DNA from: Parvibaculum sp.
GTDB taxonomy: Bacteria > Pseudomonadota > Alphaproteobacteria > Parvibaculales > Parvibaculaceae
DNA length: 64,000 nt
Direction: 5' to 3'
Assembly (NCBI GenBank): GCA_030645235.1
Contig: JAUSMV010000012.1
Span: forward strand, 1 to 64,000
Shown here piece by piece: positions 732-64,000 of this stretch (position 1 is its first letter; each line of letters opens with the position of its first letter). A program made the position numbers and the translations under genes. Under the pieces are notes generated by a model, which saw only the letters and a list, made by a program, of their open reading frames with translations, did no database searches and had not been told where the DNA came from.

Positions 732-2048
732 TCAAAATTCGCGCAGGTTATCGCGAAGCAGTTGGTGGCGATATTCAGTGCGGACGAGGCCACGCTTTTG
801 GAGTGCTGGTACGAGGCCGTCGGCGACTTCAACGAGGTAGCGTCGGCTGACGCGCATCACCGGATTGGTGAGTAAGAAGCCGTCGCCGCCGACTTCCGCC
901 ATCGCAGCCCCCATCTTGTCGGCGACCTGGTCGGGCGTGCCGATCAACTCCAACGATGACACCAGACCGCCGCCAGAAGCAGACGCTAATTCGCGCAGTG
1001 TCTTGTCGCTGCCCCATTGCTGGAACTTGTCGAGCGTGCCGCTTTCGCCATTGGTCGTCAGTTTTTCCGGTAGCGGTTCATCAAGTGCAAAGCGGGCAAA
1101 ATCAACTTCGGTGATTGCCGAAATTTGCGCGAGGATGTCATTGACGAAATGATCGGATGTGGTGGTGCGCGTGTACTTAGCGTGTGCCTCTTCTTCGGTC
1201 TCTCCTAATGTCGGGGTGATGCAGAAGAGGATTTTGATGTCGTTCGGGTTGCGTCCGAGTTTTTCGGCGCGGGCGCGGATGTCGTTGCGAAACTCTTTCA
1301 TGCCCTCGACGCCATTGGCGACTGAGATGATGCTGTCGGCATGCTTGGCTGCGAAGTCACGACCGCGCGGCGAGGCGCCTGCCTGCACAAAGACAGGTCG
1401 GCCTTGCGGCGAGGGCACGGTGTTCAATGGCCCGCGTACTTTGAAATATTTGCCTTTGTGGTCGATGGTGTGAACCTTTTTCGGGTCGGCATAGATGCCC
1501 TTATCGCGGTCGAGCACCATAGCGTCGGGTTCCCAGCTATCGAAGAGTTTGTTGACGACCTCCATATATTCGTCGGCCATGGCATAGCGCTCTTCGCGTG
1601 GTGGTAGGACATCGAGGCCGAAATTTTGTGCCGCGAGATCTTCCGCGCTTGTCACAACATTCCAGCCAAAGCGGCCACGGGTTAAACTGTCGATGGTCGA
1701 GCAAAGGCGGGCAAGCAGGAAGGGCGGGTAGCCCAATGTGGACATGGTGGCGATAACGCCGAGATGTTTGGTTGCCATGCCCATGGCAACGGCGAGAGGT
1801 GCCGGATCGTGTTTGGGGGCAACCATGGCCGCTGTGATGGAGTAGTCGCGATTGCCGCCGAAGGTCTCAGGCACCATCAGCTTGTCTTCGATCATGATGT
1901 AATCGAAGCAAGCGCGCTCAAGGGTCTGCGCCATCTCCACGTAAAATTGACCATCCCACGGGTAGCCGCCGCCTTGGGTGAAAGGTTCACGCCATTCATC
2001 GGGTGTGAAATTCATGAACCAGGCAAGATGGAATCGTTTATCGGTCAT
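732..2048 (-). CDS. LLM-class flavin-dependent monooxygenase (NtaA/SnaA/DszA type)
   Basis: A 438-residue protein of the bacterial luciferase-like family, in the branch that includes nitrilotriacetate and dibenzothiophene-sulfone monooxygenases. These enzymes use FMNH2 from a separate reductase to oxidise small organic substrates. The family landmark TRGRFGWNVVTS is visible near residue 135, and length and TIM-barrel pattern fit. I chose the ATG at 2048, which opens MTDKRFHLAWFMNF; an in-frame start 16 codons upstream would run into the palindrome. It is divergent from a TetR gene whose likely operator lies between them, so it is probably repressed until substrate is present. The substrate cannot be told from sequence, and no flavin reductase is adjacent. 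Confidence 0.88.
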   Translation of the reverse strand: MTDKRFHLAWFMNFTPDEWREPFTQGGGYPWDGQFYVEMAQTLERACFDYIMIEDKLMVPETFGGNRDYSITAAMVAPKHDPAPLAVAMGMATKHLGVIATMSTLGYPPFLLARLCSTIDSLTRGRFGWNVVTSAEDLAAQNFGLDVLPPREERYAMADEYMEVVNKLFDSWEPDAMVLDRDKGIYADPKKVHTIDHKGKYFKVRGPLNTVPSPQGRPVFVQAGASPRGRDFAAKHADSIISVANGVEGMKEFRNDIRARAEKLGRNPNDIKILFCITPTLGETEEEAHAKYTRTTTSDHFVNDILAQISAITEVDFARFALDEPLPEKLTTNGESGTLDKFQQWGSDKTLRELASASGGGLVSSLELIGTPDQVADKMGAAMAEVGGDGFLLTNPVMRVSRRYLVEVADGLVPALQKRGLVRTEYRHQLLRDNLREF

Positions 2049-2080
2049 GGGGAGGGTCCTTAGACTGCAGGGGTAAGCAA

Positions 2081-2112
2081 CCGCACTATTAATCAAATGA
2101 TTAATAGTGCGG
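2081..2112. promoter_or_regulatory. perfect 15-bp inverted repeat, likely TetR operator
   Basis: The arm ccgcactattaatca (2081-2095) and its exact reverse complement (2098-2112) are separated by two A residues. The element lies between the divergent monooxygenase and TetR genes, 33 bases from one start and 76 from the other. This position and symmetry are what is expected of a dimeric TetR-family operator controlling both genes. Binding is inferred. Confidence 0.75.
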
Positions 2113-2188
2113 TCAAGCGTCTTTTATGCGAATAAGGCGTTGTCGATCGGATGGTTGGCAGTGTTTCAGGGCTAGGCGAGGGAGAGCC

Positions 2189-2800
2189 ATGACAGAAAAG
2201 CAGGTGCGCCAACGGCTCGACCCGGCGGAACGTCAGGAGATGATCCTGGAAGCAGCGCTACGGCTTTTTGAAAAAAATCAGTTTTCCGCCGTCAGCATGC
2301 GCCAGATCGCGGCGGCCTGCGGCGTCAACATGGCGCTTCTCTATCATTACTTCGGCAACAGGGATGAGCTTGTGCGGGCCACGTTGCGTCACGCGATTGA
2401 TGCTTTTGTTCGTGATTTTTCCTCTCAACCACCGGATCCGAAAGCGCCGCTGGGGGCTGCTGATGCCTGGTTAGATGCCACGACATCAAGCGCGCCACGA
2501 CTGCAACGCATGGTTAAATTGATGGCGGATTTCTCAGCTACGGGAAATCGGGATGCCGAAGCGCAGCAGATGGTGGATGAATTTTACCACCGTGAACGCG
2601 AGACGTTTGAAGGTGCGATCAGGGCGGGAATTGCGGAAGGACGCTTTAGAAACGTCGATCCGGTGCGTACGGCCCGCCTCACCAGCATTGCGCTCGACGG
2701 CATCTTTTATGCTGGTCCGCCGCGCAATGACTATGCCTTTGCTCAGAACATCCGCGACCTCAGGGATCAATTGCTCGACTATCTTCAGCCGGATTTGTGA
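2189..2800 (+). CDS. TetR family transcriptional regulator
   Basis: A 203-residue regulator. Residues ~12-60 form the TetR DNA-binding domain: an ILEAALRLFEKNQFSAVSMRQIA-type helix set followed by the recognition helix VNMALLYHYFGNRDEL. The C-terminal ligand domain is not assignable to a known ligand. The ATG at 2189 is chosen because gcgaggg precedes it and the TetR fold starts just after; an ATG 21 codons upstream has no support. It is divergent from the LLM monooxygenase and probably controls it, and itself, through the palindrome at 2081-2112. Confidence 0.92.
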   Translation: MTEKQVRQRLDPAERQEMILEAALRLFEKNQFSAVSMRQIAAACGVNMALLYHYFGNRDELVRATLRHAIDAFVRDFSSQPPDPKAPLGAADAWLDATTSSAPRLQRMVKLMADFSATGNRDAEAQQMVDEFYHRERETFEGAIRAGIAEGRFRNVDPVRTARLTSIALDGIFYAGPPRNDYAFAQNIRDLRDQLLDYLQPDL

Positions 2801-2856
2801 GGCGGTTTTTTTTGTGTTTGATGCGCGCAGGCTACCTCTTTTCGCCGCTTCATTAA

Positions 2857-2915
2857 ATTAGAATAATTCTATTTTATTGACGCGCCTCGTCTTTCTAGTT
2901 TAGAGTAATTCTTAT
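2857..2915 (+). promoter_or_regulatory. katG promoter with two Fur-family-like (PerR/Irr) boxes
   Basis: Two 7-1-7 inverted-repeat boxes are present: ttagaat-a-attctat (2858-2872) and ttagagt-a-attctta (2900-2914). They resemble PerR boxes and the Irr iron-control element, both of the Fur superfamily. Between them lies a -35-like ttgacg (2877-2882). A -10-like tagagt (2901-2906) sits 18 bases downstream, inside the second box. Repressor binding there would block polymerase. Which Fur-family member acts is inferred; the gene is not in this window. Confidence 0.55.
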
Positions 2916-3010
2916 ATTTGCGGCGCTGTTTGCGGATGGAGCGTGTAGTGTGGTCATTGGTCAATGTCTCATCTCATGCGGCGCTGAGCTTTTTGAAAGG
3001 GAGTACTTAA

Positions 3011-5167
<2,157 letters not shown>

Positions 5168-5200
5168 GCGAGACGAATATTGCCATTAAGCCAAAATAAC

Positions 5201-5228
5201 AACCTCCCGGGTTTCAGCCCGGGAGGTT
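5201..5228 (+). terminator. hairpin after katG
   Basis: An 11-bp perfect stem (5201-5211 with 5218-5228) with a 6-base loop, 33 bases after the katG stop. The following T run is short, so termination may be partial. Confidence 0.65.
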
Positions 5229-5506
5229 TAGTTTGCAGACGAGGTGCATGAATTGGGCGAAGTTGCATTTGTCTTGCCAGAAAAGCCTCTCCATTGAAGA
5301 GGCGCGACGGTAATATCATGCTGCCCGTCAGGTTTTGCTCTGCCTTAAGCATAACGGCCGAAAAGCCCGTCTTGTGCCCTGTATTTGTGCTTTGGAATTT
5401 CTCTTGGGGCTATTGATGGTGGCAATTTTCTGCCATTCTGCCGGAAACGAATCCAGAGGCGAGGCTGATAGGCCCGTCTCCAGTGTAATGTTTATGGGAG
5501 ACCTGC
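5229..5506. other. intergenic region upstream of the glycan cluster
   Basis: About 280 bases without a convincing gene. It must hold the promoter of the rightward glycan operon, but I see no clear -35/-10 pair. A ribosome-binding gggag at 5496-5500 precedes the GTG start at 5507. A 62-codon ORF in the region lacks coding character. Confidence 0.5.
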
Positions 5507-6835
5507 GTGCATCCTCGATATAGACGAACCTGCCGTGTCTGCGGCTCCGCCGATCTCGTTCCAGTGATCGATCTTGGCCGTCAGTACCTTCAGGGTTCGT
5601 TTGTAAAACCCGGCGTGCTGATGCCGCCGACACGCAAACTGCCGACTCAGCTCGTGCGCTGCGACGTGACGCGCAATGAAAATGGCTGTGGTCTGTTGCA
5701 GCTTGCTCATTCGTTCCCGCCGGAAATCCTCTACGCCAATTACTGGTACCGCTCCGGTACCAACGCGACCATGCGCAATCATCTGGCCAGCATCGCCAAA
5801 AGCGCGCTGTCACAGACCAAGAAAGCATCACCGACTGTTCTTGATATCGGGTGCAATGACGGCACGTTGCTCGCGAATTATCCGACGACAAGCAAGCGTT
5901 ACGGCGTTGATCCGTCGGATATTGCGCGTGATATCAAAGATGGCACGGTTGTCATCAACACAGTGTTTCCGTCGGAGCAGGCGACCAAGGTTTTGCCCGA
6001 GCATGGCATCGATATCGTGACGTCGATTGCGATGTTTTACGACCTTGAATCACCGGTTGATTTTGCCAAGAGCATTGAGCGTCTTCTCAGTGAAGACGGC
6101 ATTTGGGTTTTTGAGATGTCCTATTTGCCGCTGATGCTGCTGCAGAATTCATTCGACACAATCTGTCATGAGCATCTCGAATATTACAGCCTTGCCGCGC
6201 TCGAGGAGATTGCCGCGCGGGCTGATCTGCGCATCTTTAAAGTGGCGATCAACGATATTAATGGCGGATCGATCCGCTGCTATGCTTGCCGTGCGCATAA
6301 GGCCGATTTTGGTTCGGCGGAAGACCGTGCGTTTCTCCATCGTTTGCGTATCAAAGAGTTCGAGATGGAACTCGATACCGACACGCCCTACGTGACATTT
6401 CAGAACAATATCGACCGGCTGAAGGATGAATTGAATTCTCTTCTTTTCGGTATTCGCTCTAAAGGTGAGAAGGTCCATATTTATGGCGCTTCGACCAAGG
6501 GCAACGTGTTGCTGCAATGGTATGGTATCAATCGCGTCATGGTTGATTGTGCCGCTGACCGTAACCCCGAAAAGGATGGGTCAAGCACGCTCGGAACCGA
6601 CATTCCGATTGTGTCGGAAGAAAAGTCACGTGCCGCAAAGCCCGACTATTATCTCGTTCTGCCCTGGCATTTCAAATCTGAGTTTCTGGAACGTGAGCGT
6701 GAGATGATTTTTTCCGGCACCAAGATGATTTTTCCGCTGCCGGAAGTCGTGGTTGTCAGCAAAGACAATTATGATGAGGCGCTGGCTGCAGCCAAGCAGG
6801 GTACGGAATATCTCACCCAACTCCTTCTCGGCTGA
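5507..6835 (+). CDS. class I SAM-dependent sugar C-methyltransferase
   Basis: A 442-residue protein with the three-part layout of NDP-hexose C-methyltransferases. The N-terminal zinc-binding domain has Cys9, Cys12, Cys52 and Cys61. The central SAM-binding fold shows VLDIGCNDGT at 111-120. The C-terminal domain has IYGASTKGNVLLQW near residue 320. Family members methylate a carbon of a nucleotide-linked 4-keto sugar. The GTG start follows gggag. It is the first gene of a rightward run with a GDP-mannose-dehydratase-like enzyme and a glycosyltransferase, which points to a branched or deoxy sugar for a surface polysaccharide. The sugar itself is unknown. Confidence 0.85.
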   Translation: MHPRYRRTCRVCGSADLVPVIDLGRQYLQGSFVKPGVLMPPTRKLPTQLVRCDVTRNENGCGLLQLAHSFPPEILYANYWYRSGTNATMRNHLASIAKSALSQTKKASPTVLDIGCNDGTLLANYPTTSKRYGVDPSDIARDIKDGTVVINTVFPSEQATKVLPEHGIDIVTSIAMFYDLESPVDFAKSIERLLSEDGIWVFEMSYLPLMLLQNSFDTICHEHLEYYSLAALEEIAARADLRIFKVAINDINGGSIRCYACRAHKADFGSAEDRAFLHRLRIKEFEMELDTDTPYVTFQNNIDRLKDELNSLLFGIRSKGEKVHIYGASTKGNVLLQWYGINRVMVDCAADRNPEKDGSSTLGTDIPIVSEEKSRAAKPDYYLVLPWHFKSEFLEREREMIFSGTKMIFPLPEVVVVSKDNYDEALAAAKQGTEYLTQLLLG

Positions 6836-6847
6836 GGGGGGTACGTT

Positions 6848-7804
6848 ATGCCATGCTCGCTTGTCCTTGGCGTGAATGGTCAAGATGGCAGTTACCTCGC
6901 TGAAGCTTTGCTTCGGCGGGGCCATCAGGTTGTGGGCGTCGGGCGCAACACGGCGAGCCGCTATATCGTGCCGTCATCGCAGTTTCGTTATGTTGATCTC
7001 GATTTACGTGATGGTGCGGCGCTCGGTCGTCTTGCAAGCGAGGTTGCGCCTGATTTTGCTTTTCATTTTGCCGCCGTTCACGGGTCGGCGGGCTTTCAAT
7101 ATGAGCCCGTGGTCGGCGATATGTTTGCCACCAATGTTGTGGCACTGCATGTTCTTTTGGAACATGCACGCCTCAGCTCCAAGCCCGTGCGTGTGGTTTA
7201 TGCGGGATCGTCAAAGATATTTCCAAATCCGCTTGAAGGCGTGATTGACGAGACAACGCCGGCACGTGCGACCTGCCTTTACAGTATCGGCAAAATAGCG
7301 GCCCGCGATCTGATCATGCAATATAGGGCGTTGCACAAGGTCGCTGCGACAAATCTGATTTTGTTTAATCACGAGTCTTCGCGTCGTCCGCTGCAATTCC
7401 TGTTGCCTACGATTGCCAACGGGATTTTACGTGCCAAGACTGATCCGGCCTTTCGCCTCAAAGTGCAAACACTGGACTTTCGGATCGACTGGGCGGCAGC
7501 AGATGAGTTTGCCGATCTGTCGGTTGAGATTGCTACGCGCACTGATGTAGATGAATTTGTTCTGGCATCCGGCGTTACGCATCATGCACGCGCCATTGTG
7601 CATGGGCTTTTTCAACAATACGGGTTGGATGGTGAGACCTGCATCATTGAAGCGCTGGCTAGACGAGACCCCGGCCCTGAGTTTCGCGTCTCGCTTGAGC
7701 GGCTGGAAAAAGCGGTGGGACGTAAGCCCGTAAAATCGGTGCCGGACATCGTCGCTGATATGGTTTCGGCGGCGGATGCTTCGCTTTCGCGCGGAGTGGC
7801 GTGA
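6848..7804 (+). CDS. NAD(P)-dependent sugar epimerase/dehydratase, GDP-mannose 4,6-dehydratase-like
   Basis: A 318-residue extended short-chain dehydrogenase. The N-terminal nucleotide motif GVNGQDGSYL (8-17) closely resembles the GxTGQDGSYL of GDP-mannose 4,6-dehydratase. The catalytic pair Tyr145/Lys149 (YSIGK) and the preceding serines at 121-122 are present. It likely makes or modifies a 4-keto-6-deoxy sugar nucleotide, which would be a suitable substrate for the C-methyltransferase 12 bases upstream. It is shorter than typical Gmd (~340-370), so an epimerase or reductase role is possible. The following gene overlaps its stop. Confidence 0.82.
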   Translation: MPCSLVLGVNGQDGSYLAEALLRRGHQVVGVGRNTASRYIVPSSQFRYVDLDLRDGAALGRLASEVAPDFAFHFAAVHGSAGFQYEPVVGDMFATNVVALHVLLEHARLSSKPVRVVYAGSSKIFPNPLEGVIDETTPARATCLYSIGKIAARDLIMQYRALHKVAATNLILFNHESSRRPLQFLLPTIANGILRAKTDPAFRLKVQTLDFRIDWAAADEFADLSVEIATRTDVDEFVLASGVTHHARAIVHGLFQQYGLDGETCIIEALARRDPGPEFRVSLERLEKAVGRKPVKSVPDIVADMVSAADASLSRGVA

Positions 7805-9015
7805 TGACGGAGCGCATATTGCTGGGGCAGTTGGGGGCCAAAGGTGACAGCCTCTATGCGACGATCCTTGCGCGTCAGCTTCGACGCGACCATCCGACGG
7901 GGGAGATTACATGGGCGATCTTCGATCAGAATGCGGAGCTTCTCGCAAATAACCCCCATATCGACAATGTCTGGGCGGTGCCGCTCGGCGAGCGCAGTCA
8001 AACGGCAATGATGTGGGATGTTTTTGAACGCGAGGCTCTGCGCCGTGTCATCCGCAAAGAGTTTGACCGCATTGTCTTTTCACAAATCAATCCCAGTAAT
8101 TTTCAAAACTATGATGGTACCATCCGGCCCAGCATGTTGCGGGCCTATGGCGCGCCGATCACGGTGCCGATTGAGAATGTCATCAACCTCACCGATGCTG
8201 AAATAGAACGTGTGGAAGAGTTTGCCCGTGTGCAGGAACTTGACCGGTTTGAACATCGCATCTTGTTTGAATGCACGGCGCAAAGCGGTCAGTCATTTGT
8301 AAACACAGATATTGCGCAGGAAATTGCGGCTAAACTCTATGAACGTCTGCCAAATGCGACGGTGATTTTCACGACACATTTGCCGATGGCGCTGAAGGAC
8401 AAGCGCTCGCGTTATGCCGGTACGTTATCATTGCGTGAGACGGCGCATCTTACAAAACATTGCACACTGTTTGTGGGCTCCGGCAGCGGCGGCACGGTAG
8501 CTGCGTCATCTACGTCATCGGTCGCCTTACCGATGATACAGCTTTTGAAGAAGTCGACTTCGGTTTATGCCTCCTTTGCGCATGACTTTGAGTATTTCGG
8601 TATTAAAGATCGCACGATCCTCGAAATGACCGATGAGGATCCCGCGCGTATTGCTGATTGTTTTGCGGATGTCTGTTGCGAGGGAATTGATCAGGTTTTT
8701 GGTGAGTTCGACAGCCGTATTCCGGTTAAGTTCGATCACTACTTTAAAAGTATTGAGCAAAATCTGCTCTTCCGACATCGTTATCTTGATGGTGCCCGTT
8801 CGTTAATGGCGACAGCGCTGCGTTATGGCTGGACAAAAGAACTGATCGAGTTCGGTTTGAAACGTATTGTGCCAAATCTTAGGCTTGACCCGTCCTGGCT
8901 GTTTCTGACCGCCAGGTATGTTGGTGAAGAATTGAAGTCTCAAATTGCTGATGCGCGCAAACAGCCGGTCGACACGCCGCGACAGGGTTTGTGGGCGGAT
9001 GATCAAATGAAATGA
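7804..9015 (+). CDS. glycosyltransferase family 9-like (heptosyltransferase-like) protein
   Basis: A 403-residue protein whose N-terminus (ILLGQLGAKGDSLYATILARQL) and Rossmann-like pattern recall GT9 LPS heptosyltransferases. Those enzymes transfer sugars from a nucleotide donor in the cytoplasm. The C-terminal half has the donor-domain signature of a Gly/Ser-rich segment (LFVGSGSGGTVAASS, near 220-235) followed by helices. The ATG at 7804 overlaps the previous stop (TGATG), showing translational coupling; a GTG one codon earlier is possible. It is probably the glycosyltransferase of this cluster, but acceptor and donor are unknown. Base composition is somewhat lower in GC than the later metabolic genes. 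Confidence 0.7.
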   Translation: MTERILLGQLGAKGDSLYATILARQLRRDHPTGEITWAIFDQNAELLANNPHIDNVWAVPLGERSQTAMMWDVFEREALRRVIRKEFDRIVFSQINPSNFQNYDGTIRPSMLRAYGAPITVPIENVINLTDAEIERVEEFARVQELDRFEHRILFECTAQSGQSFVNTDIAQEIAAKLYERLPNATVIFTTHLPMALKDKRSRYAGTLSLRETAHLTKHCTLFVGSGSGGTVAASSTSSVALPMIQLLKKSTSVYASFAHDFEYFGIKDRTILEMTDEDPARIADCFADVCCEGIDQVFGEFDSRIPVKFDHYFKSIEQNLLFRHRYLDGARSLMATALRYGWTKELIEFGLKRIVPNLRLDPSWLFLTARYVGEELKSQIADARKQPVDTPRQGLWADDQMK

Positions 9016-58361: not shown

Positions 58362-59834
58362 ATGACTTTCACCGTCTCCGCTGCCGTCGATAAAAGCGAC
58401 AACGCGCCCGCCGCGTCGGCGCGCGTGCCGCTTTGCGTCGATCTCGATGGTACGCTTGTTCTGAGTGATACGTTGGTGGAGCTCTTTCTGCTGCTCATCA
58501 AACGCAAGCCGTGGCTGATCCTCTATCTGCCCTTCTGGCTCCTGCGCGGCCGCGCCGGTTTCAAAGCCGAGATCGCGCGGCGCGTGAAATTTGACGCCTC
58601 GTTATTGCCCTATCGTGCGGACCTTGTGGACTGGCTGCGTGCGGAGGCCGCGTCCGGCCGCATGCTCGTGCTCGCGTCCGGTGCCAATCGCCGCATCGTT
58701 CATGCGGTTGCCGATCATTTTGGTTTTTTCACCGAAACATTTTCAAGCAACGAGGGCGAGAACCTCAAAGGTCTCGCCAAGGCCAATGCGCTTACCGCGC
58801 GTTTCGGCACATTCGATTATGTCGGCGATGCGCCGGTTGATGTCGCTGTCTGGCGCGCCGCGCGCAAATCTTACCTTTGCGTGTCCTCGCCTTCCGGCAA
58901 GCCTGCCTTTGGCCGTGACATCACATTTGAGCGTGTCTTTCCGCTTAATCGCTCGTCACAACCTCTGTTGTGGCTGCGCGCGCTGCGCCTTCATCAATGG
59001 GTCAAAAATGTTCTGATGTTTGTGCCGTTGGTGCTCGCGCATCAGGTTGACGATATGCAGCGCCTGACGACCCTTATATTGGCGTTTATGGCGTTCAACA
59101 TCGCGGCCTCCAGCGTCTATGTGCTGAACGATCTTCTTGATCTTGCCGCCGACCGTGCCCATCCGCGCAAAAAGCATCGCCCCTTTGCCGCAGGCCATTT
59201 GTCGCTCCGTTCTGGCCTCGCGCTCTGGCCTGTGCTGCTGGTTGCAAGTTTCGCGCTTGCGCTTTATGCCAGTCCCGCTTTTGCTGCTGTTCTTGGTGTT
59301 TATTACGCGCTCACGGTCGCCTATTCGTTTGAGCTCAAACGGCGCGCCCTTGTTGATGTGTTCACGCTCGCCTCGCTTTATACGTTGCGCATCATCGCAG
59401 GTGCCGTCGCTGCCAGTGTTGTGCTGTCGCCTTGGCTTTTGGGTTTTTCCGTTTTCATTTTCCTCAGCCTTGCCATCGTCAAGCGAGTTGCCGAATTGCA
59501 TTCGCTGCATGCGCGTGGTGTCACGGACCCTGCAGGGCGCGGCTATCATCATGCCGATCTGGCCATGCTTGAAATTCTGGGCGTGGCAGCGGGTTATGCG
59601 AGTGTCGTCGTGCTGGCGCTTTATGTCAGCGCGCCTGAGAGTAAAATCCTCTATGTCCGTCATCAATTGCTTTGGCTCTTTGCGCCGCTTGTTCTCTTCT
59701 GGATCAGCCGCGTCTGGCTCATCACCCATCGCGGTGAAATGCATGATGATCCGATTGTTTTCGCATTGAAGGACTCGCCAAGCCGCATTGTCGGGCTCCT
59801 TGCTGTGCTCGTCCTCGAACTTGCTGCGTTTTGA
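58362..59834 (+). CDS. HAD phosphatase fused to UbiA-family phosphoribosyltransferase
   Basis: A 490-residue fusion. Residues ~20-200 are a HAD phosphatase with nucleophile D27-L-D29-G-T, LASGANRRI and the late YVGDAPVD. Residues ~205-490 are a UbiA prenyltransferase with about nine helices. They carry N256-D-L-L-D-L-A-A-D (Mg/diphosphate motif) and YSFELKRRALVDVFTLASLYTLR. This branch resembles mycobacterial Rv3806c, which joins PRPP and decaprenyl phosphate. The HAD domain would then remove the 5-phosphate of the product; that is inference. It is the first gene of an operon with dprE1- and dprE2-like genes, 2-base spacing. Confidence 0.87.
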   Translation: MTFTVSAAVDKSDNAPAASARVPLCVDLDGTLVLSDTLVELFLLLIKRKPWLILYLPFWLLRGRAGFKAEIARRVKFDASLLPYRADLVDWLRAEAASGRMLVLASGANRRIVHAVADHFGFFTETFSSNEGENLKGLAKANALTARFGTFDYVGDAPVDVAVWRAARKSYLCVSSPSGKPAFGRDITFERVFPLNRSSQPLLWLRALRLHQWVKNVLMFVPLVLAHQVDDMQRLTTLILAFMAFNIAASSVYVLNDLLDLAADRAHPRKKHRPFAAGHLSLRSGLALWPVLLVASFALALYASPAFAAVLGVYYALTVAYSFELKRRALVDVFTLASLYTLRIIAGAVAASVVLSPWLLGFSVFIFLSLAIVKRVAELHSLHARGVTDPAGRGYHHADLAMLEILGVAAGYASVVVLALYVSAPESKILYVRHQLLWLFAPLVLFWISRVWLITHRGEMHDDPIVFALKDSPSRIVGLLAVLVLELAAF

Positions 59835-59836
59835 CG

Positions 59837-61165
59837 ATGGCCGAGAGCGAGATCACACACGCAAGCTGGGGCATGTATCCGCCGGAGCCGCAGCATATGC
59901 GCAAGCTTACGAGCCGTCATGCCGGTTTGCCGCTTACGGGTGACGAGACGGTGCTGCCTTACGGGGCAGGGCGTTCTTACGGCGATAGTTGTCTCAATAC
60001 CGGCGGCACGCTTTTGGGCTCTGCGGCGCTTGATCATTTCATCGCGTTTGATGCTGCAACCGGCGTTCTCACCGCCGAAGCCGGTATCACTTTCGCCACG
60101 ATTATCGACACCGTATTGCCGCGCGGCTGGTTCCTCCCCGTTACGCCCGGCACCAAGTATCTGACGCTTGCAGGCGCTATTGCCAACGACGTGCATGGCA
60201 AAAACCATCATCGCGTGGGCACGTTTGGTGCGCATATCCTCTCGTTTGAATTACTGACATCGGATGGTGGGCGCCGCACCTGTTCGCCGGATGAAAATGC
60301 CGATCTCTTTGCCGCCACAATCGGCGGGCTGGGTCTCACCGGCTTCATCACGCATGCGACAATTCAATTGATGCCTGCGGCATCTGCCTTTCTTGACGGT
60401 CAGTCGATCCGTTTCGGCAATTTGGACGAGTTTTTTGCTCTCGCGGAAAGCTCTTCTGTGAATTACGACTACACCGTCTCATGGATTGATTGTCTGAGTG
60501 GCGGCACGTCACTGGGGCGGGGTCATTTTCTCCGCGCCAATATCGCCTCATCCGATCTTGTCGCCGCGCGCGGTGGCAAGACAGGCGCAGGTCTGCCTCT
60601 GTCTGTGCCGTTCGTGCCGCCCGTTTCGCTTGTCAACCGCCTGACACTGAGGCCGCTCAACGCGCTTTATTATCAGCGCCAGCAAGCAAGTGTTGTTGAG
60701 AAGCTCTGGAGCTATGATCAGTTCCATTATCCGCTTGATGCTATCGCGCATTGGAACCGCATCTACGGGCCCAAAGGCTTCCTGCAATATCAATGTGTCG
60801 TACCTGTCGCGGTCCAGCGGGAGGCCGCGCATGCGTTGTTTCTCGAAATAGAAAAATCCGGACAAGGATCATTTCTCGCCGTCTTCAAAACTTTCGGCGC
60901 GGTGAAATCGCCGGGGCTTTTGTCCTTCCCCATGGAAGGGGCGACACTGGCGCTTGATTTTCCGGTTGCAGGTGAGCGTACATTCGCCCTTCTCGACCGG
61001 CTCGATGCGATTGTGGTGGAGGCGGGCGGGCGGATTTATGCCGCCAAAGACGCGCGCATGTCGGCGGCGACGTTCCGCGCGGGTTACGCTCGTTTGGACG
61101 AATTCCGGAAATTTATTGATCCGCGTTTCAGCTCAGGTTTTGAACGACGCGTCATGGGAAAATAG
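59837..61165 (+). CDS. dprE1: DprE1-like FAD oxidoreductase (decaprenylphosphoryl-ribose oxidase)
   Basis: A 442-residue FAD-binding oxidoreductase. The FAD segment is LPYGAGRSYGDSCLN and the C-terminal part has AGGRIYAAKDARMSAATFRAGYARLDEF. DprE1 oxidises the 2-OH of decaprenylphosphoryl-ribose, starting its epimerisation to arabinose. At the place of the drug-reactive Cys387 of the mycobacterial enzyme (ICVDFP, from memory) this protein has Ala372 (LALDFP). The ATG at 59837 lies 2 bases past the previous stop. It shares an operon with a UbiA fusion and a DprE2-like gene. Confidence 0.87.
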   Translation: MAESEITHASWGMYPPEPQHMRKLTSRHAGLPLTGDETVLPYGAGRSYGDSCLNTGGTLLGSAALDHFIAFDAATGVLTAEAGITFATIIDTVLPRGWFLPVTPGTKYLTLAGAIANDVHGKNHHRVGTFGAHILSFELLTSDGGRRTCSPDENADLFAATIGGLGLTGFITHATIQLMPAASAFLDGQSIRFGNLDEFFALAESSSVNYDYTVSWIDCLSGGTSLGRGHFLRANIASSDLVAARGGKTGAGLPLSVPFVPPVSLVNRLTLRPLNALYYQRQQASVVEKLWSYDQFHYPLDAIAHWNRIYGPKGFLQYQCVVPVAVQREAAHALFLEIEKSGQGSFLAVFKTFGAVKSPGLLSFPMEGATLALDFPVAGERTFALLDRLDAIVVEAGGRIYAAKDARMSAATFRAGYARLDEFRKFIDPRFSSGFERRVMGK

Positions 61166-61167
61166 TT

Positions 61168-61902
61168 ATGCAGCGGATTGTGATCTTTGGTGCGACGTCA
61201 GACATAGCAGAGGCCGCCGCGCGCGATTTTGCGAAAGCGGGGGCAAGTTTTATTTTGGTCGGGCGTAATCCCCGTGCTTTGGATGACCTTTGTGCCGACC
61301 TCAAAGTGCGGGGAGCGGCATCCGTAGAATCACGTATAGCGGATTTGTCGCACGTCGCGTCGCTGCCTGCGCTCTGCAACGATGTGCAAAATACACTGGG
61401 GATAGTGGATGTCGCGCTGATCGCTCACGGCGTCTTGCCCGATCAACAAGTGACTAACGATCTCTGCATGGAAACGCTCGATCTCTTGCAAGTAAATGCA
61501 GTGTCACCGAGCCTTTTGATGATCGAAATGCTGCGCATTTTCAAGACGCAGGGGCGGGGACATCTCGTCGTTCTGTCTTCCGTGGCGGGCGACAGAGGAC
61601 GGCCGTCGAACTATTTTTATGGCGCAACTAAAGCACTTTTATCGGTTTTGGGCGAAGGTATGGCGCTTCAGCATGCCGGTTCCGACATCAAAATTCTGGT
61701 CGTCAAACCGGGATTTGTGGACACAAAAATGACAGCCGCCTTCAAGAAAGGTGCGCTCTGGGCATCCGCTTCCGACGTCGGTGGCGCCATTGTTTCTGCC
61801 GTCGCCAAAGGCAGGTCCGGTGTCATGTACACACCGCGCTTTTGGGCACTCATCATGCTCATTGTGAGGAATGCACCCTCTTTCATAGTGCGTCGCATGT
61901 GA
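61168..61902 (+). CDS. dprE2: DprE2-like SDR (2-keto-pentose reductase)
   Basis: A 244-residue short-chain dehydrogenase. The cofactor turn is GATSDIAEAAARDFA and the catalytic pair is in YGATK, with VAGDRGRPSNYF just before it, a stretch typical of DprE2. It reduces the keto intermediate made by DprE1 to decaprenylphosphoryl-arabinose. It begins 2 bases after dprE1. Part of it (61457-61492) recurs at 32451-32486 on the other strand. The C-terminus ends with a hydrophobic helix (FWALIMLIVRNAPSFIV), suggesting membrane contact. Confidence 0.88.
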   Translation: MQRIVIFGATSDIAEAAARDFAKAGASFILVGRNPRALDDLCADLKVRGAASVESRIADLSHVASLPALCNDVQNTLGIVDVALIAHGVLPDQQVTNDLCMETLDLLQVNAVSPSLLMIEMLRIFKTQGRGHLVVLSSVAGDRGRPSNYFYGATKALLSVLGEGMALQHAGSDIKILVVKPGFVDTKMTAAFKKGALWASASDVGGAIVSAVAKGRSGVMYTPRFWALIMLIVRNAPSFIVRRM

Positions 61903-62004: not shown

Positions 62005-63513
62005 ATGTCAGGGACGGAAACACTTGAGCGGACCACGTCCGCGTCATCAAACAAAGTTGAACATTTCGATGTTCTCGTCGTCGGTGCCGGTATCTCGGGT
62101 ATCGGTGCTGCCTATCATTTGAAAACACAGAACCCCGATAAAACATTCGTGGTGCTCGACAAGTTCGAGACCTTCGGTGGTACGTGGCATACACACAAAT
62201 ATCCCGGCATTCGCTCCGATAGCGATCTCTACACATTCGGCTATCGCTTTAAGCCGTGGGTCGGCGCGCCGATTGCGACAGCGGCTGAAATCAAATCCTA
62301 TATGAATGAAGTGATCGACGAGAACGATCTCAAAAGGCATATCCGTTATCGCCACCGCATCGAAAAAGCGAGTTGGTCAAGTAAGACAAATCTCTGGACG
62401 GTGACAGCGACAAATCTTGCGACGAATGAAGCTGTGACTTTCACGACAAATTTCATGTTCATGGGTTCAGGCTATTACAACCACGAGAAGGGCTATACGC
62501 CCCAGTGGAAGGGCATGGACAAGTTCAAGGGCAAGATCGTTCATCCGCAGCATTGGCCCGAGAATCTTGACTACAAAGGCAAGCGCGTTGTGGTCATCGG
62601 ATCGGGTGCAACAGCCGCAACCGTTATTCCGGCTATTGCCGCAGATGTTGAGCATGTAACGATGCTGCAGCGGTCGCCGACCTATTTTATTCCGGGGCTC
62701 AACAGGAACGAACTTGCTGACATGCTGGCACCGCTTGATCTTGATCCGATGCTGGTGCATCAGATCGTGCGTAAGAAGATTCTCCATGATGCCGGTGAGT
62801 TGACACGGCGCTCCTTTGAAGAACCCGAAGCATTGACGGCGGAATTGCTTGAAGCTGTGAAAATGTTTGTCGGCGAAGATATTGCGAAGAAGCACTTCAC
62901 GCCGACTTATCGTCCGTGGCGGCAACGTATCGCCTTCGTGCCGGAAGGTGATATTTTTCAGGGCATCGCGTCGGGCAGAGCCTCTGTCGTTACCGATGAG
63001 ATCGACTCATTTGTGGAGGATGGCATCAAGCTCAAATCGGGTGAGGTGTTGAAAGCTGATATTGTTGTGACTGCAACAGGCTTTGACCTTTGCGTGATGG
63101 GTGACATCAAATTCTCGGTGGATGGCAAGTCGGTGTCTTGGCCCGATACGATCAACTATCGCGGTATGATGTTTACGGGCGTGCCGAACCTTATCTGGGT
63201 TTTCGGTTATTTCCGCGCGAGTTGGACATTGCGTGTTGATCTGCTCGGCGACTTTTTTGCACGCTTGCTGAAAAAGATGGATGAGAAGGGCGCCCGCCAA
63301 GTTCGTGTCGCCTTGCGACCGCAGGACAGCAATATGCCTTTGCTTGACTGGATCGACTCGGAGAATTTCAATCCGGGTTATCTCACGCGCTCAATGCATC
63401 TCTTGCCCAAGCGCGGTGACAAGCCTGAATGGATGCATAATCAGGACTATTGGGCTGAGCGGAATGAAATTCCGGCGATTGATCTTGATGGTGCCGAATT
63501 CGTCTATAGCTAA
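62005..63513 (+). CDS. flavin monooxygenase with Baeyer-Villiger fingerprint
   Basis: A 502-residue FAD/NADPH monooxygenase. The FAD motif is VVGAGISGIGAAY, the NADPH motif is VVIGSGATAATV, and between them lies FKGKIVHPQHWP, a full match to the FxGxxxHxxxWP pattern of type I Baeyer-Villiger enzymes. It inserts oxygen next to a ketone or oxidises a heteroatom; the substrate is unknown. The ATG has aaggttt before it. It shares a 9-base promoter motif with the aldehyde dehydrogenase at 26317. It is convergent with kpsF. Confidence 0.9.
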   Translation: MSGTETLERTTSASSNKVEHFDVLVVGAGISGIGAAYHLKTQNPDKTFVVLDKFETFGGTWHTHKYPGIRSDSDLYTFGYRFKPWVGAPIATAAEIKSYMNEVIDENDLKRHIRYRHRIEKASWSSKTNLWTVTATNLATNEAVTFTTNFMFMGSGYYNHEKGYTPQWKGMDKFKGKIVHPQHWPENLDYKGKRVVVIGSGATAATVIPAIAADVEHVTMLQRSPTYFIPGLNRNELADMLAPLDLDPMLVHQIVRKKILHDAGELTRRSFEEPEALTAELLEAVKMFVGEDIAKKHFTPTYRPWRQRIAFVPEGDIFQGIASGRASVVTDEIDSFVEDGIKLKSGEVLKADIVVTATGFDLCVMGDIKFSVDGKSVSWPDTINYRGMMFTGVPNLIWVFGYFRASWTLRVDLLGDFFARLLKKMDEKGARQVRVALRPQDSNMPLLDWIDSENFNPGYLTRSMHLLPKRGDKPEWMHNQDYWAERNEIPAIDLDGAEFVYS

Positions 63514-63618: not shown

Positions 63619-64000
63619 TTATGCGACGCCGGCCTTCAGGAAGTCGTGAATGTGAACGACGCCGACGGGTTTGCCTTTGTCCACAACAAAGAGGCTTGTG
63701 ATGCGCTTTGTATTGAGCACGTTCAAGGCTTCGGAGACGAGCATGGTTGGCGGAACGGTCTTGGGTGACGGGTTCATGATGTCGTTAACCGTTTTTTGCA
63801 GCAGGTCTTTGTTCATGTGACGGCGGAGGTCGCCGTCCGTTACAAGGCCTTTGAGCGCACCGCTCGCATCCACCACACCGATGCAGCCAAGCCGCTTGTC
63901 GGACATGACATAGATCGCATCTCCCATAGACGTGCCCATCGCGACGAGCGGTAGGTCTTTTTCCTTGTGCATGATGTCGGAGACGTGACGAAGGCCCGCG
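63619..64000 (-). CDS. kpsF: arabinose-5-phosphate isomerase KpsF/GutQ, C-terminal part (partial)
   Basis: Only the last ~127 codons are in the window; the frame runs off the right edge. They hold the paired CBS domains that end KpsF/GutQ isomerases: HVSDIMHKEKDLPLVAMGTSMGDAIYVMSDKRLGCIGVVD and VNDIMNPSPKTVPPTMLVSEALNVL, closing PVGVVHIHDFLKAGVA. The missing SIS domain would convert ribulose 5-phosphate to D-arabinose 5-phosphate for Kdo. The CBS end could also belong to another SIS-CBS protein, but the closing residues fit KpsF best. Confidence 0.87.
   Translation of the reverse strand, partial: AGLRHVSDIMHKEKDLPLVAMGTSMGDAIYVMSDKRLGCIGVVDASGALKGLVTDGDLRRHMNKDLLQKTVNDIMNPSPKTVPPTMLVSEALNVLNTKRITSLFVVDKGKPVGVVHIHDFLKAGVA

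Follow-up and report, generated by a model that had tools for sequence, protein, structure and literature searches.

Does a compact three-gene operon of Parvibaculum sp. provide a lipid-linked D-arabinose donor, and if so, for which glycan? The mycobacterial cell wall is the best-known site of D-arabinofuranose, and the pathway that makes its donor there is targeted by drugs. The operon lies in a 64,000-nucleotide stretch of one contig, referred to here as the window (Table 1), and, as far as can be judged from homology, its three adjacent genes very probably make a D-arabinose-carrying lipid for surface sugars.

Table 1. Features of the operon and its flank (positions in the window).
Feature	Position	Strand	Remarks
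HAD phosphatase - UbiA phosphoribosyltransferase fusion, PRP-PPPRS type (predicted)	58362..59834	+	490 aa
HAD (phosphoribose phosphatase-like) domain	58431..58946	+	approx. residues 24-195; PF12710, motif conservation, model
UbiA-fold polyprenyl-phosphate phosphoribosyltransferase domain (predicted)	58974..59831	+	residues 205-490; PF01040, 8j8j alignment, tree, Foldseek
DprE1-like FAD-dependent polyprenylphosphoryl-ribose 2'-oxidase (predicted)	59837..61165	+	442 aa
DprE2-like SDR 2'-keto reductase (predicted)	61168..61902	+	244 aa
C-terminal (CBS) end of KdsD/KpsF-type arabinose-5-phosphate isomerase	63619..64000	-	continues to 64605 on the contig; context, outside the pathway

The ORF list and a check of the sequence reveal three intact plus-strand ORFs at 58362-61902, with 2 bp between neighbours. 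The fusion gene runs from ATG 58362 to the stop codon TGA at 59832-59834. For the DprE1-like gene the ORF tool had chosen a TTG that overlaps this stop; ATG 59837 is likelier and gives a protein of 442 aa and a 2-base gap, and the DprE2-like gene follows at ATG 61168 after another 2 bases. With dN/dS values of 0.17-0.18 against congener G003, all three genes evolve under purifying selection. Because of these values, the PRK08238.1 score and the PDB matches described below, the ORFs cannot be chance open frames. The architecture proposed in the initial annotation, a HAD-UbiA fusion closely followed by DprE1- and DprE2-like genes, is thus confirmed by ORFs, Pfam and PDB matches.

In the fusion, Pfam recognizes a HAD domain (PF12710, 3.5e-7) and a UbiA domain (PF01040, 1.3e-20), and the NCBIfam model PRK08238.1 covers the whole length (residues 16-489) with 613.9 bits at a cut-off of 351. 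A PDB sequence search matched Rv3806c (8j8j) at 1e-30. In the predicted structure (mean pLDDT 92) the HAD domain is joined to a UbiA/PRTase domain; the top Foldseek match of the modelled UbiA half is again Rv3806c 8j8j, with a TM-score of 0.81 of the target and 30% identity in the structural alignment. Both phosphoribosyltransferase motifs, NDxxDxxxD and KRxxE, are present (N256-D257-x2-D260-x3-D264-R-x-H-x2-K-x2-R and K374-R375-x2-E378), and N256, D257, D260, D264, H267, K270, R273, K374, R375 and E378 are invariant among 77 fusions. The HAD catalytic positions are D27/D29, S106, K140, D156 and D160; in the same set D27, D29, K140 and D160 are invariant, and the position of S106 is always Thr or Ser.

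Since the general UbiA Pfam model matches the fusion, one might read its second half as an ordinary quinone or haem prenyltransferase in a fortuitous neighbourhood. The model scores tell otherwise: the PRK12324 phosphoribosyltransferase models give the fusion 139-156 bits, versus 33 bits for ubiA_proteo and cyoE. In the tree, the UbiA half clusters with Rv3806c and the stand-alone PPPRS proteins and is split (99/97) from quinone UbiAs and MjDGGGPS; the tree was built without haem O synthases, and the haem model gives the fusion only 33 bits. Moreover, the genome holds three further UbiA genes, two of which obtain much higher scores from the general UbiA model, and the gene order of the operon is kept across many taxa. 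Unless both are artefacts, scores and tree refute this reading, to which we assign a very small probability, and the grouping that had been named in advance as a refutation of the phosphoribosyltransferase assignment is not what the tree displays. By homology, the fusion is therefore very probably of the PRP-PPPRS type, predicted to transfer from PRPP to polyprenyl phosphate and to act as a 5-phosphatase. That one chain would supply both transferase and 5-phosphatase, as first suggested from the sequence, has a precedent in ORF15 of Citrobacter youngae (PMC11127046), and the HAD half, predicted to act on a phosphoribosyl lipid, keeps all catalytic positions.

The second protein carries the FAD_binding_4 domain PF01565, and DprE1 (4aut) is by far its best PDB match (1.9e-88). 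The active-site His and Lys of DprE1 are kept and invariant in 63 relatives (H121 and K405 when numbered from codon 59834; subtract 1 for ATG 59837). At the position of the mycobacterial Cys387 there is an Ala, as in 62 of the 63 relatives. For the third protein, mycobacterial DprE2 (21gq_C) is the only PDB sequence match at E<=1e-20 (1.9e-25); the SDR glycine motif (G8) and the triad S138, Y151 and K155 are invariant in 52 relatives. We call both proteins "-like" because they miss the NCBIfam equivalog cut-offs: the oxidase reaches 385.9 of 500 bits with NF053785 and the reductase 149.6 of 250 bits with NF053786, the latter also scoring 239 bits with PRK07102, again below the cut-off. These cut-offs may simply suit actinobacterial members.

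From these homologies it is likely that the product of the operon is a D-arabinofuranose donor linked to polyprenyl phosphate, with PRPP as the starting material. The UbiA half would join PRPP and polyprenyl phosphate to polyprenyl-P-ribofuranose-5-P, from which the fused HAD half would strip the 5-phosphate. In the resulting polyprenyl-P-ribofuranose the DprE1-like enzyme would oxidise C2 with FAD, and the DprE2-like enzyme with NAD(P)H would reduce the keto sugar to polyprenyl-P-D-arabinofuranose. The first two steps are supported by homology to the characterised ORF15, the last two by homology to DprE1/DprE2; sequence by itself leaves room for chemistry at C3 instead of C2. The carrier is probably undecaprenyl phosphate. 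Thereafter, a flippase would move the lipid-linked sugar across the membrane for a GT-C enzyme to use on the outer side, the likeliest acceptor being the exopolysaccharide encoded next door. This flippase, transferase and acceptor are inferred, as are the identity of the product as arabinofuranose and its arrival in an envelope glycan. The mycobacteria-like donor route put forward at the outset (the steps of Rv3806c, a phosphatase, DprE1 and DprE2) is hence supported by homology, tree and conserved catalytic residues. Its presumed self-sufficiency holds for donor synthesis and ends there; the operon has neither a flippase nor a GT-C gene.

It is conceivable, albeit improbable, that the product is another polyprenyl-phosphate pentofuranose, such as ribose or xylose, with oxidase and reductase acting on a different carbon or substrate. 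Apart from the missed equivalog cut-offs, this possibility draws on 13 of 75 informative fusion loci that have no dprE1 nearby and should supply ribofuranose, and on Citrobacter O2, where xylofuranose is made via an SDR epimerase (PMC11127046). However, the xylose system has a single GalE-like SDR instead of a DprE1 plus DprE2 pair, DprE1 and DprE2 stand out among the PDB matches, and DprE1/E2 homologues go with Araf-containing glycans (PMC11127046).

As to the glycan, an exopolysaccharide cluster starts beside the KdsD/KpsF-type isomerase gene, and genes of the Wza/Wzc/Wzx/Wzy type adjoin the operon, which in congener G014 is embedded among such genes. The position of the operon beside an exopolysaccharide cluster is new here. 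The polytopic proteins of the adjoining cluster are two Wzy_C proteins, one acyltransferase and one Wzx; no GT-C was recognised among them. The search for a GT-C gene outside the window, proposed with the initial annotation, yielded a candidate: an unlinked GT87 gene (contig C58:1720370-1721596) is the leading arabinosyltransferase candidate in the genome, whereas PMT_2 and PMT genes, like those of the flippase family GtrA, were not found in the genome with positive search controls. Likewise, a search that ran without a positive control revealed no relative, in this genome, of a GT-C-like protein (L085) that other bacteria encode close to the fusion. Within the genus, the GT87 gene co-occurs with the fusion in 7/7 complete genomes (2e-5), a simple count that overstates the case because, in a ubiA marker tree, fusion-bearing genomes fall into few lineages, with about two or three independent events. 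In other Alphaproteobacteria, GT87 genes adjoin fusion or stand-alone PPPRS genes; the flanks of the 80 loci surveyed, mostly outside Alphaproteobacteria, contain no GT87 relatives. A PDB sequence search with the GT87 protein gave no matches; its best structural match is PimE (Z 28.5, rmsd 3.6 over 362 residues). The GT87 family includes users of polyprenyl-phosphate mannose, e.g. PimE, which counts against a role as arabinosyltransferase.

In five congeners a PF03706/TIGR00374 flippase-like gene directly precedes the fusion. The only copy in this genome is located on another contig (C1), within a second set of the order stand-alone PPPRS-PF03706-DprE1-DprE2. We treat this set as possibly foreign because the tetranucleotide distance of its contig (0.252) is as large as those of other organisms, versus <=0.140 for the genome's own chunks. 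These observations, together with the missing PMT_2, PMT and GtrA genes and the absence of PF03706 upstream of the fusion both here and in sister G003, would also fit a donor whose onward system has been lost, the operon either decaying or relying on a flippase and transferase gained elsewhere. We regard this as quite unlikely: the three operon genes are intact and constrained, the genome carries a GT87 gene that is just as constrained (dN/dS 0.145), and the adjoining cluster offers a Wzx-like flippase. Returning to the arabinofuranose donor, we tentatively propose that the operon, a PF03706/TIGR00374-type flippase and the unlinked GT87 protein may form one exopolysaccharide D-arabinofuranosylation system in Parvibaculum. 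If true, the flippase of this three-component system would belong to a family other than the MATE, SMR and GtrA types reported to date, and the transferase would be a GT87 enzyme for arabinofuranose from beyond the Actinobacteria. In any case, GT87 and PF03706 give testable names to the missing transferase and flippase.

The wider survey for HAD-UbiA fusions next to dprE1/dprE2 found the co-linear order in 58/75 informative loci, the majority of them from Proteobacteria. Operons in which transferase and phosphatase share one chain, with DprE1/DprE2-like genes behind it, are thus common among Proteobacteria and occur in scattered cases elsewhere. Therefore, many Gram-negative bacteria may carry surface glycans with D-arabinose. 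Since nearly all of these DprE1 homologues have Ala at the benzothiazinone-reactive Cys, they are predicted to escape covalent benzothiazinone inhibition.

With ORF15 characterised, a fusion family in NCBIfam and this recurrent gene order, the operon is a good fresh example and not a novel kind of system. The NCBIfam entry, PRK08238.1 (NF006088), is named "UbiA family prenyltransferase", a name without the phosphoribosyltransferase/phosphatase function. ORF15 is a biochemically characterised PRP-PPPRS fusion with transferase and phosphatase in one chain, and its D18A variant accumulates the 5-phosphate (PMC11127046). Like ORF15, the Parvibaculum protein has an N-terminal HAD phosphatase joined to a UbiA-fold phosphoribosyltransferase; by motif spacing, D18 equates to D27, N247/D248/D251/D255 to N256/D257/D260/D264, and R366/E369 to R375/E378. 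Whereas the Citrobacter systems yield ribose (O1) or xylose (O2, SDR epimerase), Parvibaculum has DprE1/DprE2-like genes after the fusion, homologues of which are linked to arabinofuranose systems (PMC11127046). Of the three-component pentofuranose system, the donor synthase is present in Parvibaculum by homology only; the Citrobacter cluster encodes a MATE flippase as well as a GT136 GT-C, in place of which the PF03706 and GT87 proteins are the candidates here. The mycobacterial decaprenylphosphoryl-arabinose pathway (Rv3806c, Rv3807c, DprE1, DprE2) has the same order of reactions and DprE1/DprE2 active-site residues, but its phosphatase is a separate, unrelated protein instead of a fused HAD domain, and its DprE1 has the benzothiazinone-reactive Cys387 in place of Ala. 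The parallel to the Azorhizobium noe genes, also drawn at the outset, is real: in the noeCHOP (noeCNHOP) operon for Nod-factor D-arabinosylation of Azorhizobium/Rhizobium, noeC, noeH and noeO are assigned to steps of the mycobacterial pathway (PMC2443382, PMC5080398). Like the Parvibaculum operon it represents a proteobacterial D-arabinose donor route, yet with a phosphatase proposed as a separate gene, noeN, with nodulation genes nearby, and with a proposed transferase of its own, NoeP.

The three genes lie on contig C55 of a 3.83 Mb assembly, whose closest named relatives are Parvibaculum (the fusion at locus L064 is 72% identical), and the three-gene operon of the initial annotation is found where it was described, with a single refinement. 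For the DprE1-like gene the tool called a TTG start overlapping the stop of the fusion, but translation more probably begins with the ATG at 59837. With this start, both intergenic gaps are 2 bases. Comparison with the sister congener G003 gave dN/dS values of 0.17-0.18 for all three genes.

Table. Features of the operon region (window positions).
Feature	Position	Strand	Remark
HAD-UbiA fusion gene	58362-59834	+	intact ORF
DprE1-like gene	59837-61165	+	intact ORF
DprE2-like gene	61168-61902	+	intact ORF
FMO/Baeyer-Villiger-type monooxygenase gene	62005-63513		directly after operon
KdsD/KpsF-type arabinose-5-phosphate isomerase	63619-64000 (to 64605 on contig)		between operon and exopolysaccharide cluster

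The fusion protein is matched by both the HAD and the UbiA models of Pfam, and scores 614 bits with the existing fusion family NCBIfam PRK08238.1 (cut-off 351 bits). Among other UbiA models, the PRK12324 phosphoribosyltransferase models reach 139-156 bits, whereas quinone/haem models reach 33. The mycobacterial polyprenyl-phosphate phosphoribosyltransferase (PPPRS) Rv3806c is the top PDB sequence match (1e-30) and, as 8j8j, the best structural match (E 2e-10, TM-score 0.81 of target) of the predicted model (mean pLDDT 92.3, 48-sequence alignment), the HAD half of which resembles phosphoserine phosphatases. Catalytic residues are invariant in 77 fusions. In a maximum-likelihood tree the UbiA half joins Rv3806c and stand-alone PPPRS, split from the quinone UbiAs (99/97). 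Stand-alone relatives of the HAD half (~180-220 aa, no fused UbiA) occur in other Alphaproteobacteria (G048, G052, G183, G281 and others), some with genomes of only 0.6 Mb.

A PDB search with the DprE1-like protein finds DprE1 (1.9e-88), and mycobacterial DprE2 is the only match at 1e-20 for the DprE2-like protein; catalytic residues are invariant in 63 and 52 relatives, respectively. The position of the benzothiazinone-reactive mycobacterial Cys387 is an Ala codon here (60950-60952), and Ala in 62 of the 63 fusion-linked DprE1 relatives. Since Ala replaces the reactive residue, covalent inhibition by benzothiazinone would not be expected. By homology, which supports the transferase, phosphatase, oxidase and reductase functions, the operon would make polyprenyl-phosphate D-arabinofuranose (for the mechanism, see Kelly et al. 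2024, PMC11127046), and the D-arabinose donor pathway proposed initially holds on this footing. The identities of lipid and sugar, export, transfer and acceptor are parts of the route that we infer.

Downstream of the isomerase, the contig encodes a metallophosphatase, a Wza-like export protein, a BBP2 porin, a Wzc-like kinase, two Wzy_C proteins, an acyltransferase, a Wzx-like flippase, a sulfotransferase and glycosyltransferases. In the congener G014 the operon is embedded in a matching exopolysaccharide cluster, and matching genes lie near it in G004, G015 and G019. Because the operon is beside or inside an export-polymerisation cluster here and in congeners, exopolysaccharide is the likeliest acceptor of D-arabinose. 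The isomerase probably functions in Kdo synthesis; four congeners have relatives of it close to the operon. The monooxygenase is 89% identical in G003, compared with 68-74% for the operon, and among congeners adjoins the operon only there.

No PMT_2, PMT or GtrA genes were found in the own genome, which has a single GT87 gene (C58:1720370-1721596, 408 aa), modelled with a PimE-like GT-C fold (Z 28.5). Mycobacterial AftC is a GT87 member. It is a GT-C arabinofuranosyltransferase (PMC2610374). Within the genus, the fusion exceeds its family cut-off in 8 of 27 genomes (G000, G003, G004, G006, G014, G015, G019 and G023); GT87 occurs in the first seven and in G020. The two exceptions, G020 (57%) and G023 (79%), are both incomplete genomes. 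Without correction, the probability of this co-occurrence is 7e-5 (2e-5 in complete genomes), but on a ubiA marker tree the independent lineages number only about two or three. Across the class sample, where 28 of 385 genomes carry the fusion above cut-off, GT87 is present in 12/28 versus 48/357 others (p 3e-4), and in 25/69 genomes with any PPPRS versus 35/316 (p 2e-6), kinship being ignored in both. Physical linkage is stronger evidence than these counts: G242 has fusion, dprE1, dprE2 and GT87 in a single run, a GT87 gene 49% identical to the present one adjoins a stand-alone PPPRS in G092, and another adjoins a UbiA gene in G218. The GT87 protein is a predicted candidate for the transferase that would use the operon's product.

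The candidate flippase is the PF03706 protein (TIGR00374, flippase-like), which is above cut-off in seven genus genomes, all fusion-bearing; in G006, G014, G015, G019 and G023 its gene immediately precedes the fusion. Relatives occur in 26 fetched loci, in many just upstream of the fusion. The sole copy in the own genome is on contig C1 (L144), within a second donor set (943-4832) that combines a stand-alone PPPRS from the Rv3806c clade with PF03706, DprE1-like and DprE2-like genes and adjoins a GDP-mannose pyrophosphorylase gene. As its tetranucleotide composition is unlike the remainder of the assembly, C1 may stem from contamination or have been acquired recently. In one Methylococcaceae MAG (L075:117-2564) PF03706 and the HAD-UbiA fusion share one 815-residue frame, a single instance that a sequencing error in a stop codon could explain. 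Another locus (L192 of G391, 2753-8513) has a compact cluster of fusion, GtrA, dprE1, dprE2 and a polytopic 589 aa protein that no Pfam model matches; it probably provides donor synthesis, a flippase and a GT-C outside Pfam coverage.

A scan of genome contigs yielded 192 fusion relatives, 80 of which were kept for the survey, among them relatives from Xanthomonas, Pseudomonas, Competibacter, Legionella, Nitrosomonas and Paracoccus, and on one contig each labelled cyanobacterium, Nitrospirota, Kapaibacterium and actinomycete. Among the 75 loci with sufficient sequence downstream of the fusion, dprE1 is adjacent without dprE2 in three, nearby in one and absent from the vicinity in 13; the operon is common, since fusion, dprE1 and dprE2 are co-linear in the other 58. 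What is added here is the operon survey together with two predictions, the GT87 and PF03706 candidates, for a kind of operon that is already known and widespread.
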